A DNA stretch of 64,000 nt from contig JAJZZC010000003.1 in NCBI GenBank assembly GCA_021797775.1, forward strand, positions 1 to 64,000, in the 5' to 3' direction. A model generated the notes under the pieces. It was not told the origin of the DNA, made no database searches, and saw only the letters and a program-made list of their open reading frames with translations. Source of the stretch: Bacillota bacterium (GTDB lineage: Bacteria > Bacillota > Sulfobacillia > RBS10-35 > JAJYVN01). The position numbers and the translations under genes were made by a program. This document shows, piece after piece, positions 3,832 through 60,901 of this stretch (positions are counted from its first letter, which is position 1; the number at the start of each line of letters is the position of its first letter).

Positions 3832-3904
3832 CCCTGGCGGCGGGCCCGCGCCTCGGGGTGGCTTGGGGGGACGGCCGCGCTTGATCCATGAGGCCCGAAT
3901 AAGC

Positions 3905-3981
3905 GTCCGCCTGTCGTCCTGCGCCCCCGCAAGGGGCAGAATCCCAGGGCCGAAAGGGGCAGAAGACCTGGTGGGGCGGAC
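3905..3981 (+). ncRNA. candidate structured 5' leader motif, copy 1 (upstream of guaA)
   Basis: gtccgcc...ggcggac closing stem, gccccCGCAaggggc-like hairpin, gccGAAAggggc core; shared with four other loci. Confidence 0.6.
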
Positions 3982-4058
3982 AGCGCGCGCGGGCGGGGGG
4001 AAGGGGGGCTGCCCCCTGCCCGCGCGCCCGTGCGCTTGGTGATCACCAGGTCCAGCAG

Positions 4059-5642
4059 TTGATGGAAGCGGTCGTTCCGTCCGCCGCGCAGGTGTCCCCC
4101 TCCCCCGAGGACGCGCCCGAGCGGGTGGCCGTGCTCGACTTCGGCGCGCAGTACGCTCAGCTCATCGCCCGCGGGGTGCGCGAGTGCCACGTGTACTGCG
4201 AGATCCTGCCGGCGGGGACCTCGCCCGCCGAGTTGGCCGCGCGGGGTGTCGCGGCCGTGATCCTGAGCGGCGGTCCGGCGAGTGTGTACGCCCCGGATGC
4301 GCCCCGGTTGCACCCGGCGCTCTTGGCCTCGGGGCTGCCGATCCTCGGCATCTGCTACGGGCAGCAGGTGCTGGCACAGGCGTTGGGGGGCGAGGTCGCC
4401 CCCGGATCGCCGGAGTTTGGTCCGGCGGAGCTGGAGGTCGCGCACGCCGAGGGCGTGCTCGCGGGCTTTCCTCCGCATACGTCGGTATGGATGAGCCACG
4501 GGGACCGCGTGCTCTCGCCGCCGTCCGGTTTCCGCGTGTTGGCGCGCACCGATCACGCGCCCGTGGCTGCGATGGGGGACCCGCGCCGCCGCATCTACGG
4601 CGTGCAGTTCCATCCGGAGGTCGCCCACACGCCACTGGGCACGCAGGTGTTGCGCAATTTCCTGCACGGCGTCTGCGGCCTACAGGGACTCTGGACGGTC
4701 GAGGCCTTCGTCGAGCGCGCGGTGCCGGCCATCGCGCGGGAGGTGGGCGAGGCTCGGGCCATCGTCGCGCTCTCCGGGGGTGTGGACAGCGCGGTTGCGG
4801 CCGCCCTCGTGGCGCGCGCCGTGGGCGAGCGCCTGACCGCCATCTTCGTCGACCATGGCCTCAACCGCGAGGGGGAGGCCGAGGACGTGACGGCGGCCTT
4901 CACGGCGGCCTTCCCCGGGTTCCCCCTGATGCGCGTCGATGCGTCCGCGCGTTTCCTTCGGCGGCTGGCGGGGGTGCGGGACCCGGAGCGCAAGCGCCGC
5001 GTCATCGGCGAGGAGTTCGTCACCGTCTTTGAGGAGGAGGCGGGGCGCATCGGCCCCGTGGACTTCCTGGTCCAGGGCACGATCTACCCGGATGTCGTGG
5101 AGAGCGGCGGTGGCGCCACGGCGACCATCAAGACGCACCACAACGTTGGCGGCCTACCGGAACGCATGCGCCTCCGACTGCTGGAGCCCCTGCGCGCGTT
5201 GTTCAAGGACGAGGTCCGGGCCGTGGGCGCCACGCTCGGGCTGCCGGATGCGCTGCTGTGGCGCCAGCCGTTTCCCGGCCCCGGGCTGGCCGTGCGCCTG
5301 ATCGGTGAGGTGACGGGCGAGCGCGTGGCGCTGCTGCGGCGGGCCGATGCCATCGTGCGGCAGGAACTGCAGCCCCTGGGGCTCGGCCGGGAGATTTGGC
5401 AGGGGTTCGCGGTCTTGCCGGGGATTCGCAGCGTGGGCGTCATGGGGGATGGGCGGACGTACGGGGAGGTGGTCGCGGTACGCGCCATCACGAGCCGCGA
5501 CGGCATGACGGCGGACTGGGCGCGCATCCCCCACGAGGTGCTGGCCCGGCTGAGCGCCCGCCTCGTGAATGAGGTGCCCGGCGTGAGCCGTGTCGTGTAC
5601 GACGTGACCAGCAAGCCGCCGGCGACTATCGAGTGGGAGTAG
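4059..5642 (+). CDS. guaA: GMP synthase (glutamine-hydrolyzing)
   Basis: GATase motif GICYGQQ, ATP-PPase SGGVDSAV, C-terminal [16 protein letters not shown]. Confidence 0.97.
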
Positions 5643-8370: not shown

Positions 8371-8849
8371 AGCGGGCCCCGACCGCGCGCAGCGGCCCCA
8401 ACCGGGGGGGCCATGCAACCCAGAGCGCGCAAGCGTCAGGCCCTGGGCGCGGGGCGCAGAGGGGGCGAGCGGACCGCGCCGACCGCCGCCCGGTGACGAC
8501 GGGCTCCGCTGTGGTGGCGGGGGAGCATGGTGCGCGGCCGAGCTTGGCGCGAGTTGGCTGAAGGGGAGCAAGGGCCGCTGGCGGCGGGGGCGGGGATGCG
8601 CGCTCGGTGCCGTGCCCCTATTTCCCAAGCCGCCAGCCCCACGCAAGGGCTAGGCGGACAGCCCAGCGGCGCGCCGACGGACGAGGATACGCCGATCCGC
8701 AACCGCTCGATGGAGGGACCACGGCCCACGGGCGCGGGATGCGGCTCTACTCCGGCCGGCTGGCCCTGGCCGCGGATGTGGGCCGTGCACCCGCTATTCC
8801 GTGCCCGCATGGGAGTCCCGGGGTGCGCGGCGTGTGCTGCTTGACCCTG

Positions 8850-8922
8850 GGCCGCCTGTTGCCTACTGCCCCGCAAGGGGTAAATCTCAGGCCGAAAGGG
8901 GCGAAAGCCTGGTCGGGCGGGC
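8850..8922 (+). ncRNA. candidate structured 5' leader motif, copy 2 (upstream of purS)
   Basis: ccccGCAAgggg hairpin and caggccGAAAggggcgaaagcctggtcgggcggg core shared with copies 1,3,4,5. Confidence 0.6.
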
Positions 8923-8979
8923 GGTGTGGCAGGCCGAGGGATCGGTTTGACCACACGGTCTCAACCAGGCATGTAGGCT

Positions 8980-39811: not shown

Positions 39812-40988
39812 GAAGCTGGCCGCCGCGATCCGGCGGGGCGAGGTCGCGCCCGTGTATACCCTGGCCGGCGAGGACCTGCTGCAACAGCGCGAGGTGTTGG
39901 CGGCGTTGCGCGAGCGCGTTCCCGACATCGGCCGCCAGGTGCTGGACGGCGCCACCTGTTCGGCGGGGGAGATCGTCGCGGCGCTCCGCACCGCGGGCTT
40001 TGTCCCTGGCCGGCTCGTGGTTGTCGAGGAACCACGGTGGATGTTGCCGCCCCGCCGGGCCGCTGGCCGCTCCGCCCGCGGCCGGCCGGCCCGTGCCGAC
40101 GCGCGGAGCGCACCCGATGGCGGTGAGGACGCCGAAGGCGCCCTAGGGGAGGGCGGCGATGCAGTCGCCGACGACCCTGCCACGGAGGGACCGGGCAGCC
40201 CAGCGCCCGCGCAGCAGAACGCGGAACAGGGCGAGACGGGAGGCGATGAACGCGCCCTGCTCGCCTACATCGACCGGCCGGCGACCGACGCGGTGCTGGT
40301 GCTGCGTGCGACTGCGGCCGTGGACCGGCGCCGCCGTCTCACCCGCCGGGCGGCTGAACGCGGCGTGCAGTTGCTGACCGTGCCGCCGGCACCGGCCGAG
40401 GCTGCTCGCTGGATCCAGGAGCGCGCCCGCGGCCTGGGCCTACCGCTGGACCGGGCATCCGGGGACCTGGTCGCGGCGCGGCTGGAGGGTGCGACGTGCG
40501 AGCGCATCGACAGCGAGTTGCGCAAGCTGGCGGCGTGGGCGCAAGGGACGGTGCTCGACCGGGAGGCCCTCGACCGCCTGTTGCCGGCGAGCCGGGAGGA
40601 GCGCGTCTTCGATCTGCTCGATGCGGCCGTGCTGGGCCAGGGGGCGCGGGCGCTCGCCCTCGGCGCAGCCCTGCGCGCGCAGGGCGAGCCGGTGCCCCTG
40701 CTGCTTTTCCTCCTTGCGAAGCAGTTGCGCTCGCTGGTCCTCGTGGCGGACGCCTGCCGTGACGGGAGCCGGCCCGAGGAAGCGGCCGGACGGCTCGGGT
40801 TGCACCCTTTCGTCGCACGTAAGGCTTTGCAGCAATCCCGTCATTTCTCGCCCGGCGCCCTGGCGGCAGCGTGGGACGCCGTCTGGGGGGCCGAGTTCGC
40901 TTTCAAGTCCGGCCGGCTGGACGAGGATCGAGCCCTCGACCAAGCCCTGTTGGGCGTACTGCGCGCACAGGCCACAGCTTCAAGTTGA
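39795..40988 (+). CDS. holA: DNA polymerase III subunit delta
   Basis: APVYTLAGEDLLQQREVL, C-terminal KQLRSLVLVAD, followed by rpsT. Confidence 0.88.
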   Translation: MALAFEKLAAAIRRGEVAPVYTLAGEDLLQQREVLAALRERVPDIGRQVLDGATCSAGEIVAALRTAGFVPGRLVVVEEPRWMLPPRRAAGRSARGRPARADARSAPDGGEDAEGALGEGGDAVADDPATEGPGSPAPAQQNAEQGETGGDERALLAYIDRPATDAVLVLRATAAVDRRRRLTRRAAERGVQLLTVPPAPAEAARWIQERARGLGLPLDRASGDLVAARLEGATCERIDSELRKLAAWAQGTVLDREALDRLLPASREERVFDLLDAAVLGQGARALALGAALRAQGEPVPLLLFLLAKQLRSLVLVADACRDGSRPEEAAGRLGLHPFVARKALQQSRHFSPGALAAAWDAVWGAEFAFKSGRLDEDRALDQALLGVLRAQATASS

Positions 40989-41186
40989 CATCTCCCCACG
41001 GCTAGAGCCGGGGGATGCGGGGTTATGGGACCCTCGCGGGCCCTCCGGTTCCTGGTTCCTCGGGAGGCTTGCGCCCCATCTCTCCACAGGCAACTGCACC
41101 GCCTGCCCGGCGGCGGAGCGGCGCCTCAGCGCGCTGTCGTTCTGCCCTCCAAACCGCGACCGGAACGACCCCATTCGCACCCGCGC

Positions 41187-41427
41187 CAGGGCCGCGTCGT
41201 TCTGGGCGAGTGGCTTGCGCCACAGGCGATTGCGGGCGCAGGCCGAATGCGCGGCGTACGGTCGTCAGTGCCCCCGTGACCCCACGGGCGCCGCGGCCGC
41301 GTCGTGGCGCCGAACCTGTGCGCGGCAAGCGGTGGCAGGCGCGAGCGGACCGGCGTACCGCTCCGAAGTCACCCCCGCTCGTGGCGCCGTCTGGGCGAAG
41401 GCCCCCCGCCGGAATGACGCCACCCTG
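41187..41427 (+). mobile_element. MITE-like element, copy 1
   Basis: TIRs CAGGGCCGCGTCGTTC / GAATGACGCCACCCTG; 10-bp TSD gcacccgcgc at 41177-41186 and 41428-41437; near-identical to 55227-55467. Confidence 0.8.
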
Positions 41428-41522
41428 GCACCCGCGCCCGCGCTGCAGGGCCGCCGTGTGCGGCGTCGAAGGCACGTCCGGATTCCGGTGCGTGTGGGTG
41501 CCCGAGCGGCGGGGGATGGGCC

Positions 41523-42089
41523 GTGGAGCAGGCCAGGGACGCAGGTCTCCGGGTACGGCAGGCGGGGCCCAGCGACCTTCCGGCGCTGACGGCCCTGCGC
41601 GCTGCGGCCGGGTGGGGTTCCGGCGGGCTGGAGGGCAGCTTCGCTGCGGTGGCGGCGGGGCGTCAGGTCATCCTGGTTGCTGATCTGGACGGGCGAGCCG
41701 TCGGCACGGTGACCGCCACCTTTATGCCCGCGGGAACGGGGAGGGCGCGCTCGGGTCACATCAGTGATCTGGTGGTGGCCCCCCGCTGGCGCCGGCGCGG
41801 GATCGCCAGCGAGTTGCTGGCGGCGGCGGAGGAAGCCATCCACCGGCGGGGTCTGCAAGGTGTCACGCTCGACGTGGACGCCCACAACGACGGGGCCATG
41901 CGCCTCTACCTCGGACGTGGGTACCACCGCCTCGGTCCGGCGCAGTTTCCCTGGGGCCCTGGTCACACGCTGCTCAAGGTGCTGGAACCGGACGGTCGGC
42001 CCGTGCCGGCGTCGCCCCGTGGATGGCCGGCATGGACGCACCGGATCCGGCGGTTCCTGGCTGGTGACCAGTGGCCCTTACCGCGTTGA
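41523..42089 (+). CDS. GNAT family N-acetyltransferase
   Basis: ISDLVVAPRWRRRGIASELLAAAEEAIHRRG, YLGRGY. Confidence 0.85.
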   Translation: MEQARDAGLRVRQAGPSDLPALTALRAAAGWGSGGLEGSFAAVAAGRQVILVADLDGRAVGTVTATFMPAGTGRARSGHISDLVVAPRWRRRGIASELLAAAEEAIHRRGLQGVTLDVDAHNDGAMRLYLGRGYHRLGPAQFPWGPGHTLLKVLEPDGRPVPASPRGWPAWTHRIRRFLAGDQWPLPR

Positions 42090-42317
42090 TGGCGGGCAGG
42101 TGGGTGGGAGCCCGTCCGGCAGCGTGCCGGGAACGGCGTTCAGCCCCGGGTGCGGCGGCCGAGAAGGGGCTCAGCGAGGGTTCCCGCCGTGTGCGAAAAC
42201 CGTCTGCCCTATCCAGGCGCAAGCCTGGCTCGGGCGGGCCGTGGTGGTCCCATCCGCGGCCCCCGCGCCCCGGTCCACCGGCCTCCCGCAAGCGGGGCAG
42301 GGTTTCCCTTAGGCTAC

Positions 42318-42391
42318 GTCCGCCCATCGCCTGTCTCCCTGTGGAGGGAGCAAATCCGGGGTCGAAAGGGGACAAGCCTGGTCGGGCGGAC
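42318..42391 (+). ncRNA. candidate structured 5' leader motif, copy 3
   Basis: GTCCGCC...GGCGGAC; ctccctgtggagggag hairpin; gtcGAAAggggac core with compensatory changes relative to copies 1-2. Confidence 0.6.
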
Positions 42392-42435
42392 GGCGTGCGT
42401 CGGAAGGAGATGGGGCGTCTCCGCAGGCGCGCGCG

Positions 42436-42843
42436 GTGGTGACCAGGCGGAACGAGAACGTGGCAACCGCAGAGGATGCCGAACTGGTCCTGAAGCTCTA
42501 CGAGTTGCGGCGCGAGCCGGTATTGCGGCAGGCGCGCGAGTGGTTCATGCGGGAGTTCAACCCGCAGTCTCAGGAGGAGATGCAGAAGCTCTGCCCGCCG
42601 GGCAGCGACGCCAATCGCTTCTACCGTATGGTGACGACCTACTGGGAGATGGCCGCCGCCTGCATGGTCCATGGCGGCATCGACGAGGCGCTGTTTCTGG
42701 AGACCAGTGGGGAATGCATGGTCGTCTGGCGGAAGGTCGCGGGTTGGATCGGCGACGTCCGTGCCGCCAGGCATCAGCCCGGTTACCTGCGCAACGTGGA
42801 AGAGGTCGCCAAGCGGATGGAGGCCTATCGGAGCCGCGGCTAG
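42436..42843 (+). CDS. hypothetical protein (DUF4760-like)
   Basis: Well-structured ORF: LKLYELRREPVLRQAREWFMREFNPQSQEEM...FYRMVTTYWEMAA; downstream of leader motif. Confidence 0.75.
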   Translation: MVTRRNENVATAEDAELVLKLYELRREPVLRQAREWFMREFNPQSQEEMQKLCPPGSDANRFYRMVTTYWEMAAACMVHGGIDEALFLETSGECMVVWRKVAGWIGDVRAARHQPGYLRNVEEVAKRMEAYRSRG

Positions 42844-49850: not shown

Positions 49851-50579
49851 CCAGCCGGTGGTGCAGCGCGGCTCCTAAGCTACGGGATAGGGCCGTGGGG
49901 ATGCGCATCCGGCCGCACAGGGCGTAGACGTGCCTTCACCTGGCGCCGCGCGGGCGGCGCCTCTTCTCGGCTTCGGCGCCCACGCCGCTTGGCCCGGTCC
50001 CCGGGGCTGGCTCCTGCGCGATACAATTCCCGCGCGTCCCTGCGCGTGCCTTGTGGCCGCGCGCAGGCCCCGGCGCGACCGTTGTGGCCGGGCGCTGAGC
50101 GGGTGCCTGCGGGACCCGCCGGCCTCTGGCGCGTGGGGTCCGCAACTGCGACGGGCCGCCGCGCCATGGCGGCGGACGGCCTGGGCCCCGGTCTCCGGTC
50201 GGTTCCCCTGTTCGGCCGCGGGCCGATGCGACGGTGGGTGGACACGGGCGGGCCGTCGGGCTCGGAGGGGGGCGAGCGCAACGACGGTCGACACGACCGC
50301 CACCTTCGACGACCTGTGCGCCTTCATGGCCGAGCCGGGCTGCGCGGTCTGCCACTGCGCCACCCAGGCGGAGGACCGGTTCTTCCGGGCCGCGCTGTAT
50401 GAGCGCGTGGTGGAGGTGCCCTTCCGCGAGCGCCTGCGGGAGACGGGCGGGTTCTGCGCGCGCCACGCCCAGGCGCTGCTCGCCTACCGCGACCCCCTGG
50501 CGACCGCCATTCTGTATGGGGACCTCCTCCGGCAGCGGCGGGAGCTCCTGGCGCGCTGGCGCGATACGCGGCTGCCGCT
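49851..50579 (+). repeat. Segmental duplication, copy A (matches 54443-55168)
   Basis: Long near-identical tracts, e.g. gacggtcgacacgaccgccaccttcgacgacctg and ctgcgcggtctgccactgcgccacccaggcg. Confidence 0.85.
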
Positions 50580-51033
50580 ACGCGCGCGTGGACCCGCCTG
50601 GGCGCGGCCGGACGAGGCGGCGTTGAGCCGCCGCTGCATGGCCTGCGCCATCACCGCCGAGGCCGAACGGCGGGCCTGCGCGGTGCTGGCCACGGGGCTG
50701 GGCCAGGGGCGGCTCGGCGAGGCCTGGGCGGCGTCACCGGGCCTGTGCTGGCCCCACTTCGCCATGGCCCGCCCGCGCTGCGGCGGCGCCGCCCGCCGGC
50801 TGCTCGACGACGTGGAGGCGCAGCGGCTGCAGGCGCTGGGGGCCGACGTGCAGGCCCTGATCGACAGCTTCGACTACCGGAGCGACGGCCAGCGGCCCCC
50901 TCAGGTAGAGTCCGCCTGGAGGCGCGCCGTCGCCGCCCTGGTCGGGCGCGTGGTCGGTCCAGGGGAGGGTGGAGGCGTCGACGCGGCCGAGCGGCGCCGG
51001 CGACTGCCGCCGGGGGCCGGGGCGCGGGGGTGA
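50326..51033 (+). CDS. DUF6062-like cysteine/histidine-rich protein
   Basis: CAVCHCAT, GFCARHAQALLAYRDPLATAILYGDLL, CMACAIT; conserved frame begins upstream near 50290 but no canonical start found there. Confidence 0.65.
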   Translation: MAEPGCAVCHCATQAEDRFFRAALYERVVEVPFRERLRETGGFCARHAQALLAYRDPLATAILYGDLLRQRRELLARWRDTRLPLRARGPAWARPDEAALSRRCMACAITAEAERRACAVLATGLGQGRLGEAWAASPGLCWPHFAMARPRCGGAARRLLDDVEAQRLQALGADVQALIDSFDYRSDGQRPPQVESAWRRAVAALVGRVVGPGEGGGVDAAERRRRLPPGAGARG

Positions 51034-54442: not shown

Positions 54443-55168
54443 GCAGCCGGTGGTGCAGCGCGCCGACCACGCTGCCGGATAGGGTCGTGGGGACGCGCAG
54501 TTGGCGGCACGCGACGCAAACCAACCGGGCGCCCCGCGCGGGCGGCGCCTGTTCTCGCCTTCGGTCCCCGCGCCGTTTGGCCAGACCCCAGGCTGGGTCC
54601 CACGCGATACGATTCGCACGCCTCCCCATGCGCGCCTTGGGGCTGCGCGCGGACCCCGGGAGCAACCGTTGGGGAGGGGCGCTGAACGGGCCGCCGGCGG
54701 GATACGGGGTCCTCTCTGTGAGGCCGCCTCCCCAACTGGGGCGGGCCGCCGCGCCACGGGGCGGCCCGCCTGGGCCGCGGTCTCGCGTCGGTTCCCCTGT
54801 TAGGCCGCGGGCGGAGGCGACGGTGGGTGGACACAGGCGGGCCGCAGGGCTCGGAGGGAGGCGAGCGCAACGACGGTCGACACGACCGCCACCTTCGACG
54901 ACCTGCGCGCCTTCATGGCCGATCCGGGCTGCGCGGTCTGCCACTGCGCCACCCAGGCGTAGGACCGGTTCTTCCAGGCCGCGCTGTATGAGCGCGTGGT
55001 GGAGGTGCCCCTCCGCGAGCGCCTCCGGGAAACGGGCGGGTTCTGCGCGCGCCACGCCCAGGCGCTGCTCGCCTACCGCGACCCCCTGGCGACGGCCATT
55101 CTGTACGGCGATCTCCTCCGGCAGCGGCGCGAGCTATTGGCGCGCTGGCGGGGTACGCGGCTGCCGCT
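54443..55168 (+). pseudogene. Truncated DUF6062-like copy B
   Basis: Duplicate of 49851-50579 with in-frame TAG at 54960-54962 (GAG in copy A) and loss of homology at 55168. Confidence 0.8.
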
Positions 55169-55226
55169 CGGCGCGGCGGCGTCCCGGCCAGGGCCCCCCT
55201 CCAGAACGCCACCCTGTGAAGGCGCT

Positions 55227-55467
55227 CAGGGCCGCGTCCTTCTGGGCGAATCGCTTGTGCCACAGGCGATTGCGGGCGCAGGCCGAATTCGGCGCGTACG
55301 GCCGTCAGTGCCCCCGTGACCCCACGGGTGCAGCGGCGGCATCGAGGCGCCGAACCTGTGCGCGGCAAGCGGTGGCAGGCGCGAGCGGAACGGCGTACCG
55401 CTCCGAAGTCACCCCCGCTCGTGGCGCCATCTGGGCGAAGGCCCCCCGCCGGAATGACGCCACCCTG
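55227..55467 (+). mobile_element. MITE-like element, copy 2
   Basis: Same TIRs and length as copy 1; 10-bp TSD tgaaggcgct at 55217-55226 and 55468-55477. Confidence 0.8.
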
Positions 55468-55609
55468 TGAAGGCGCTCGCCCCGGCAGGTAACCCGGCCC
55501 TGCCGGTGTACCCTGCACGACACATGGCCCGCTGCACCCGCCGATGCGTCCGGGGACGCGCGCGGGCCGGCGCGAGCGCCCGTGGGCTGCGCGGCCTTGC
55601 CCCCCAAGC

Positions 55610-55651
55610 GCAAATCGAGGCCGAAAGGGGCGAAGGCCTGGTGGGGCGGAC
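55610..55651 (+). ncRNA. candidate structured 5' leader motif, copy 4 (core)
   Basis: gcaaatcgaggccGAAAggggcgaaggcctggtggggcggac. Confidence 0.5.
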
Positions 55652-55705
55652 GGCGCGGTAGGCCGGTGGCCGATCGTTGCGCGTCCGTGTCGCCAGGGAT
55701 CACCG

Positions 55706-56566
55706 ATGCGGCTCTGTCTGACGACGCTCGGCTGCCCGAACTGGACGATCCCGCGGGTGTTCGCCGAGGCGGCGCGCCTCGGCTACGAGGGCGTGGAGTT
55801 CCGCTGCCTGGGCGGCAAGCCCATCACGCCGGCCTTGCCCGCCGAGGACCGTGCCGAGATCCGCCGGCTGTCGCGGGAGACGGGGCTGCCGGTCGTGGCC
55901 ATCGGCGCCTCCTCCGCGTTCTCCCACCCGAACCCCGCGGTGCGCGCGGCGCAGGAGGAGGACCTGCGTGGCATGCTGCAGCTCGCCGCTGACGTTGGTG
56001 CCCCCATGGTGCGGGCGTACGGGGGCGGGTTCCCGCGGCCCCTGACGCAGGATGCCGGCCGCACCTACGGGGGGGATCTGCCCGAGGGCGTGGGGCGGGA
56101 CGTGGCCTGCGCCTACATCGCCGAGTCGCTCGACCGCATGGCGCCCCGGGCCGGAGAACTCGGCCTCACGATCGTCGTCGAGACGCACGACGGGCTGTCG
56201 TCGGCGCGCGTGGCCGCGGACGTCCTCGGCCGCGTGCGCTCGCGGCACGTGCAGGCCCTCTGGGACGTGCTGCACCCCACGCGCATGGGGGAGACCCCGC
56301 GCGCAGTCTGGGACCTGATCGGGCCGCGGGTGCGGCACGTACATTTCAAGGATGCGGCCCGTGACCCCTCGGGGCGCTGGCGGGCGGTGCTCCTGGGTGA
56401 GGGCGAGGTGCCGCTCCCCGAGTGCCTGCGCCTGCTGCGTGCCGAGGGCTACGCCGGGTGGGTCACCCTGGAGTGGGAGAAGTATTGGGAGCCGGAGATC
56501 GCCGAGCCGGAGGTCGCCCTGCCCCACATGATCGCGACGGCGCGCCGCTGGCTGGCGGAGGGGTGA
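55706..56566 (+). CDS. sugar phosphate isomerase/epimerase family protein
   Basis: AARLGYEGVEFRC, VVETHDGL, ALWDVLHP, VRHVHFKDA, GYAGWVTLEWEKYW. Confidence 0.9.
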   Translation: MRLCLTTLGCPNWTIPRVFAEAARLGYEGVEFRCLGGKPITPALPAEDRAEIRRLSRETGLPVVAIGASSAFSHPNPAVRAAQEEDLRGMLQLAADVGAPMVRAYGGGFPRPLTQDAGRTYGGDLPEGVGRDVACAYIAESLDRMAPRAGELGLTIVVETHDGLSSARVAADVLGRVRSRHVQALWDVLHPTRMGETPRAVWDLIGPRVRHVHFKDAARDPSGRWRAVLLGEGEVPLPECLRLLRAEGYAGWVTLEWEKYWEPEIAEPEVALPHMIATARRWLAEG

Positions 56567-59579: not shown

Positions 59580-60096
59580 AGGAGGGCAGAGGCCGCTTTT
59601 CCCGCCGCGGGCACGGCGGCGGAGGGGGCCGGCCGTCCAGGTGTGGGCGTCCGTGCGCGGGGTGCCGCGCGGACCATGGCGCCGCGGGTGGCGCGCCAGC
59701 GCGTACCGAGCTTCCGGCCCCGGGGCGGCGCCTCGCCGCCGCCCCGGGCACATGGGTGCGCGCGCCTTTTCTGCCCAATTCGCGGGGCGCAGCGGGGTGC
59801 GCGGCCCGCCAGAGCGGGCGTCGCTCGCCCGCAGGCAGCGACGCGGCGCAGCGTCCCCCCGGGCCGGAGCGAGGTGCCCCGCTGCATGCCGCGAGCCGTT
59901 CCCGTGCCGGTGGGCGGGCAGTGGCGGTGCGAGAGCGCGCTCTGGCCCGCACCGGGCGCGGGGCCATGGCTGATCGCACCCGGGCCGCGGCAGCGGAGCG
60001 CCGGCAGGATCGGGCTCGACGTGCGGCCGGGCGCCAGCTTGGCGGGGCGGCCCCGCCGCAGGGCGTCTTTCCCGGTACGCGCGGCGCAGGCCCGTT

Positions 60097-60157
60097 CCGG
60101 CCGCCGCGCGTGGGGCGAATCGAAGGCGGAAAGGGGCGAAGGCTTGGCGGCGGACGG
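60097..60157 (+). ncRNA. candidate structured 5' leader motif, copy 5 (upstream of hemQ)
   Basis: ccggccgccg/cggcggacgg stem; gcgaatcgaaggcgGAAAggggcgaaggcttgg core. Confidence 0.5.
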
Positions 60158-60208
60158 TGGACGGCCGCGTCAGCGGTCGGTCCATGCGGCACGGGCCAGG
60201 CGACGGAC

Positions 60209-60901
60209 ATGCCCGATGGCGAGCGACCCGCGGTTCCCGAGACGCAGTTCAGCCACACCCTGGTCTACCGCCGCACGGAACGCTGGCTGGCGGTGGGGGA
60301 CGGCATCCGCCCGGCCGCGGTAGAAGTGGAGGCGGCGCTGGCCGCGCACGCGGACGTCGCCGTGCGCGGGATCTATACCGTCGCCGGGCTGCGGCCCGAC
60401 GCCGACCTCGCGATCTGGCTGCTGGCCGAGGACGTGGAGCGCGTGCAGGCGGTGACCGCCGCGGTGCGGCGCACGGCCTTTGGCCGCGCCTGTGACCTCT
60501 CATACGCCTTCCTCGGGGTGGCGCACCGGCCGGAGTACGTGGGTGACCACTACGCCAGCTTTCAGTTGGGGAAGCCGCCCTTGCGGTACCTCTGTCTCTA
60601 TCCCTTCGTGCGCACGCCGGAATGGTACCTGCTGCCGCACGCCGAGCGCGCACGCATCCTGCGGGAGCACGGCATGATGGGTGCCGAGTTCCCGGAGGTG
60701 CAGACCAACAACGTCCAGGCCTTCGGGCTTGGCGACTGGGAGTGGCTGCTCCATTTCGAGTGCAACCGCCCGGAGCGTTTCACCGCGCTGATCCGCCGGC
60801 TGCGCGAAGCTGAGGCCCGCCGCTACACCAGGCTGGAGATCCCCTTCATCCTCGGCCGCCGGGTCGAGCGCGTCGAGGAGGCCCTGCACGCGCTCGGGTA
60901 A
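60209..60901 (+). CDS. hemQ: chlorite dismutase family protein / coproheme decarboxylase HemQ
   Basis: YPFVRTPEWYLLPHAERARILREHGMMG, NNVQAFGLGDWEWLLHFECNRPERF. Confidence 0.92.
   Translation: MPDGERPAVPETQFSHTLVYRRTERWLAVGDGIRPAAVEVEAALAAHADVAVRGIYTVAGLRPDADLAIWLLAEDVERVQAVTAAVRRTAFGRACDLSYAFLGVAHRPEYVGDHYASFQLGKPPLRYLCLYPFVRTPEWYLLPHAERARILREHGMMGAEFPEVQTNNVQAFGLGDWEWLLHFECNRPERFTALIRRLREAEARRYTRLEIPFILGRRVERVEEALHALG

Follow-up and report, generated by a model that had tools for sequence, protein, structure and literature searches.

The structured RNA motif that recurs in the window, by which we mean the whole stretch of 64,000 nucleotides that was analysed, is most probably (we put this at about 90%) the right-end reRNA scaffold of IS607-type TnpB transposons, together with 5'-truncated remnants of such ends, inserted into Shine-Dalgarno (SD) sites. 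An earlier note on this DNA had read the motif as a possible riboswitch or cis-regulatory RNA, a reading that is not supported, since IS607/TnpB transposons of other Bacillota have this RNA as their right end.

All five copies described in that note are present in the window and share a common architecture (Table 1), as was established by a check of their sequences, with the reservation that P1 lacks an intact 5' strand in the 55 kb copy and that part of the 60 kb copy has degenerated. A core covariance model (R1, 75 positions, built from ten copies) gave the copies 41-92 bits in the window, versus at most 17.5 bits for the next-best match; as the training set included the guaA, purS and 42 kb copies, only the scores of the 55 kb and 60 kb copies are independent. 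The purS copy reaches 5' to about 8765. The guaA copy is 5'-truncated, as its upstream sequence has no similarity to that of other copies and no upstream module was found there. The window also holds three paralogous stretches (49930-51033, 54487-55470, and 40489-41589) with up to 94% identity. The ORF at 49930-51033 matches DUF6062, the ORFs at 54487-55470 and 40489-41589 have no Pfam match, and ORF 54487-55470 stops about 100 nt short of the 55 kb motif copy (55573).

Table 1. Features of the five motif copies in the window and of the genes downstream of them.
Feature	Position	Strand	Remarks
Putative reRNA scaffold core before guaA (P1, P2, P3 region, GAAAGGGG)	3904..3982	+	R1 70.6 bits, training copy
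Pseudoknot 5' strand CCTGGT, guaA copy	3967..3972	+	
Pseudoknot 3' strand ACCAGG, at guaA SD position	4045..4050	+	
guaA (GMP synthase), host gene downstream	4059..5642	+	Pfam GMP_synt_C, GATase
Upstream scaffold module remnant, purS copy	8765..8831	+	76% identity to 144-nt module query
Putative reRNA scaffold core before purS	8849..8923	+	R1 91.6 bits, training copy
ACCAGG, partner of CCTGGT 8908-8913, purS copy	8964..8969	+	
Putative reRNA scaffold core before DUF4760 gene	42317..42392	+	R1 69.7 bits, training copy
ACCAGG, partner of CCTGGT 42377-42382, 42 kb copy	42442..42447	+	
DUF4760 gene downstream of 42 kb copy	42460-42843		Pfam DUF4760
Putative reRNA scaffold core, 55 kb, P1 5' strand decayed	55573..55652	+	R1 42.2 bits, non-training copy
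GCCAGG, partner of CCTGGT 55637-55642, 55 kb copy	55692..55697	+	
Xylose-isomerase-like gene downstream of 55 kb copy	55706-56566		Pfam AP_endonuc_2
Putative reRNA scaffold core before hemQ, partly decayed	60089..60156	+	R1 41.1 bits, non-training copy
GCCAGG, partner of CTTGGC 60143-60148 (C-G replacing usual U-A), hemQ copy	60195..60200	+	
hemQ downstream of 60 kb copy	60209-60901		Pfam Chlor_dismutase

That the motif is a recurrent one was borne out by covariance-model searches of the genome and its relatives. Across the whole assembly (5.55 Mb), at least about 98 copies reached E<0.01 with R1, while R2, a longer model of 122 positions, found at least 113 at E<=1; both counts are lower bounds from scoring the best 150 candidates. 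The core pattern gave 14 matches in the whole genome versus 1 in a reversed control. The motif is present in all six genomes of the window's family and scattered elsewhere (27 of 154 class genomes and 28 of 399 phylum genomes). A pattern scan of named genomes returned 89 stretches, mostly from thermophilic Bacillota and a few of them chance matches in other phyla, with many copies each in Carboxydocella thermautotrophica and Fervidicola ferrireducens. Other RNAs were seen near two motif copies: a sub-threshold PyrR binding site (L113:1837-1924, minus strand; 47.8 bits, gathering 54) lies 5' of a copy before a pyrB-like gene, and in Desulfofundulus a group II intron (L232:6436-6605; Rfam group-II-D1D4-3) is separated by about 1 kb from a copy before a ribosomal-protein-like gene.

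The approximate consensus of the RNA consists of AGTCCGCCTGTYGCCTACNGCCCCGCRAGGGGCAAATCCAAGGCCGAAAGGGGCGAAAGCCTGGTCGGGCGGACG, the P4 stem (TGTGG...CCACA) and AACCAGG, followed, mostly after 5-12 nt, by the start codon. Its final helix, in which CCTGGT pairs with RCCAGG 5-12 nt upstream of the start codon, was absent from the earlier description of the copies. Because this pairing occurs at the SD position, each copy extends to the SD site, so that the claimed placement before start codons stands but the element runs further 3' than had been thought. RCCAGG is most often 7 nt away from the start codon, and 84% of the copies in the window's own genome have RCCRGG at SD distance of a start codon that opens an ORF of 100 aa or more, versus 16% of all RCCRGG occurrences in the window tested in the same way.

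Covariation of the stems, also claimed previously, was upheld by a pair test on 40 copies. In these, 92.6% of cells pair, and 13 double-sided pair changes were observed versus 5.5 in shuffles, none of 500 shuffles being as high; the pair counts were above every shuffle and every slid control. The right end is a structured RNA with a pseudoknot (CCTGGY/RCCAGG) that lies over the new SD position and shows compensatory changes of its own. Among 174 copies from all genomes, 149 have full six-pair complementarity between CCTGGT and RCCAGG (with some G-U pairs). Where C replaces the last T, the partner is nearly always GCCAGG (seven CCTGGC/GCCAGG and one CTTGGC/GCCAGG), and two of the 174 copies have CCCGGT/ACCGGG. 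CCUGGU has two mutually exclusive pairings, one with the upstream P3 strand and the other with the SD; three drawings of the P3 region were compared, and the pair counts favoured none of them over the others.

The view that the motif lies outside the known classes agrees with an Rfam cmscan of the copies, which gave no match at the gathering threshold and only chance-level matches at E<=10. RAGATH-18 was likewise absent at E<=1 from a scan of six loci whose elements are complete or partial, and since whole elements were without an Rfam match, the scaffold is an RNA family other than RAGATH-18. Judged from sequence, the motif represents a putative reRNA family that is missing from Rfam and is paired with an unusually large TnpB. 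Readings of the upstream GGGTGGAACTCC loop as T-box-like, and of P4 with its T run as a terminator, were dropped, as both left the transposon association unexplained.

The motif is associated with tnpA and tnpB in other genomes. In Carboxydocella, Fervidicola and other Bacillota, it forms the 3' end of a transposon of the IS607 family, in the order IS607 TnpA, a TnpB/Cas12f-like protein of about 560 aa, motif RNA, and gene start. The sequence upstream of most Carboxydocella copies is a nearly identical repeat of about 2 kb that contains the ~560-aa ORF and has the motif at its end, and TnpB ORFs precede the motif in further phylum-level matches. One Bacillota MAG (L241) has a MerR/serine recombinase in front of the large-protein ORF, and this recombinase was assigned to NCBIfam transpos_IS607 (NF033518) with 197.6 bits (cut-off 110); many single copies are without tnpA. 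Carboxydocella also has a miniature, non-autonomous form (L227, ~545 nt) in which a large internal deletion has left the left and right ends in place.

The ~560-aa protein matches NCBIfam TIGR01766 (TnpB-related) with 38.2 bits (cut-off 32) and also Cas12f2, and its match to guided_TnpB (E 7.7e-28, 97.8 bits) is just under the cut-off of 100. Sequence searches of Pfam and PDB gave no match, and the best PDB folds found by Foldseek with an AlphaFold model of moderate confidence (pLDDT 69) were those of Cas12f and CasX. Residues D314 and E403 of the TnpB-like protein (L196:851-2536; alignment A7) are invariant, as is His470 (HTST-G-WKY..H..AAL), which by eye stands where the third RuvC acidic residue is expected. 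Based on this apparent replacement, the protein may be nuclease-dead or have a rearranged active site.

Insertion into SD sites was observed directly in Carboxydocella. The left flank of all nine copies with a readable left end finishes with xGG[A/T]G, and the right flank begins with G in the copies where the right end was read. These nine insertions are thus at a GG (xGG[A/T]G^G) and have not duplicated their target; once the flanks are joined, an SD and start codon reappear, e.g., AAGGAGGTTCCAGAAAAATG. Insertion into SD sites accounts for the near-fixed distance of the motif to start codons. In the window's family, similarity stops at differing places in different copies and no left end could be placed, and the insertion site is therefore assigned there by analogy with Carboxydocella. 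The target motif of the TnpB is probably GGAG-like. By the same analogy, the element of the guaA copy would end at 4049, with 4050 as the right-flank G.

AGGAG is the core of the SD site. IS607 TnpA has been described as using a GG target without duplication (PMC6188088) and IS607 TnpBs as having the TAM AGGAG or GAGGG (PMC11061315), while a report on the IS607 reRNA describes a pseudoknot beside the guide and a right-flank base within the scaffold (PMC10711439). The target motif AGGAG published for IS607 TnpBs is the SD site, a correspondence that the text of PMC11061315 does not mention. Our literature search on TnpB or IS607 in connection with the SD, of incomplete coverage, found no paper stating an SD insertion preference.

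TnpB remnants lie beside motif copies in the window's genome. There are 12 TnpB fragment matches, and those on contigs C16, C365, C375, C87 and C221 are on the same strand as motif copies and just upstream of or touching them. Relatives likewise have TnpB fragments beside copies (G002:C82, G004:C162, and G005:C175), IS607 transposases occur in all six family genomes, and in one member an IS607 TnpA is followed directly by the start of a TnpB that is cut by the contig end (G002:C241). There are 31 occurrences of an upstream scaffold module of 144 nt, all but one of them adjoining a core; the remnant before purS is among these 30. As most cores have no detectable upstream module, most copies look 5'-truncated or decayed. 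We found TnpB fragments but no intact TnpB element with the motif in the window's genome; assembly breaks at repeats may be the reason why intact multi-copy elements are missing.

The downstream host genes are functionally unrelated. They include guaA, purS, hemQ and a sugar-isomerase-like gene (from Pfam) and, by eye from their N-termini, ftsZ, minD, ilvE, ispG, dnaE, purC, and others. This supports the earlier suggestion that the targets are too varied for one metabolite and speaks against the purine link that had been drawn from guaA and purS, as does the finding that guaA is present but the motif is absent there in each of the five related genomes searched. A plain SD-like sequence precedes the guaA start in some of these relatives. 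Only ispG, purC and dnaE carry the motif in the window's genome and in another genus (two genera each), and their leaders are no more alike between genera than random copies. The absence of the motif at the relatives' guaA and the dissimilar leaders of orthologues therefore indicate mostly lineage-specific, 5'-truncated insertions. A conserved regulon was considered and rejected, since few genes are common to the genera and their leaders are not orthologous by similarity; the conserved link to functionally related genes that is expected of a riboswitch was not found.

Based on these observations, we propose that the serine transposase TnpA would swap strands at the GG within the SD (GGAG^G), and because this exchange lies inside the SD, the element would end 5-12 nt before the start codon. 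Its final ACCAG and the flanking G would occupy the SD position, where ACCAGG pairs with CCUGGU as a pseudoknot adjoining the guide. The opening bases of the host gene, those of guaA in the case of the guaA copy, would serve as this guide, and the motif RNA would, with this gene start as its guide, be a putative partner bound by TnpB. The inserted end would supply a weak SD (CCAGG) and so become a leader, and the pseudoknot may reduce translation of the host gene. On sequence evidence, inserted ends are probably the 5' leaders of about 100 host genes.

The alternative that fares best, although we regard it as unlikely, is that the transposon ends have been domesticated, so that the family's copies are mainly cis-regulatory leaders whose pseudoknot masks the SD, with or without TnpB. 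The core and pseudoknot have been kept in many copies despite loss of the upstream module, but the copies were found by their core and its retention is biased by the search. Compensatory pseudoknot changes, e.g., CCCGGT/ACCGGG and CCTGGC/GCCAGG, may similarly predate insertion, having arisen in active elements. Copies do precede many apparently essential genes (by eye); however, few genes are common between genera and their leaders are not especially alike. An extension to genome scale, in which about 100 leaders carry a pseudoknot over the SD, translation is tuned either by a TnpB, which may be nuclease-dead, or by the pseudoknot on its own, and mRNA starts double as guides, seems to us equally doubtful.

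It is less probable still that the motif is a transposon end acting at the DNA level, through TnpA binding sites, or else a miniature non-autonomous element, and that it does not function as RNA. The short truncated copies and the internally deleted Carboxydocella L227 with both its ends would fit this, but the covarying structure is strand-specific, the pseudoknot lies next to the element end, and IS607 ends have been described with short directly repeated motifs (PMC6188088). Least probable is a riboswitch or global cis-regulatory RNA in which CCUGGU pairs with the P3 strand or the SD to switch translation on a signal, since its two mutually exclusive pairings, the ~100 copies before start codons and the covarying stems are set against the transposon association in other genomes, insertion within the SD, unrelated downstream genes, the failure to find a regulon conserved between genera, and the relatives' guaA without the motif.

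Translational riboswitches have a structured leader that sequesters the SD. The motif is similar to these in having a leader strand able to pair with the SD position, but differs from them in its mobile origin and unrelated targets and in that no conserved regulon was found. ISFba1, an IS607 element with TnpB and a RAGATH-18-derived reRNA (PMC11061315), is also from Firmicutes and has a structured RNA directly after tnpB, a pseudoknot (PK2) in which the 3' end pairs with a loop further upstream, and a TAM, 5'-AGGAG, that matches the Carboxydocella insertion site. Its TnpB averages 390 aa versus about 560 here and, unlike ISFba1, the window's family has about 100 copies per genome, mostly truncated. 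The ISXfa1 IS607 TnpB reRNA (PMC10711439) is alike in that guide-flanking nucleotides form a pseudoknot with an upstream loop, and in its GG crossover with a right-flank base in the scaffold; it differs in host, TAM (GGG) and scaffold, and stand-alone copies are not described in the part of that paper which was consulted.

Reading the motif as the right end of IS607-type TnpB transposons explains a riboswitch-like pattern as a mobile element, and is a warning that transposon ends can turn up when regulatory RNAs are sought by their motifs. We consider the link between targeting and the SD and the scale of leader replacement to be the parts of most interest. The AGGAG target of IS607 TnpBs is linked to the SD, a site that lies before many genes and that an inserted end can replace. 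As about 100 genes apparently have transposon ends as their 5' leaders, the effect of such insertions on expression would be directly measurable.
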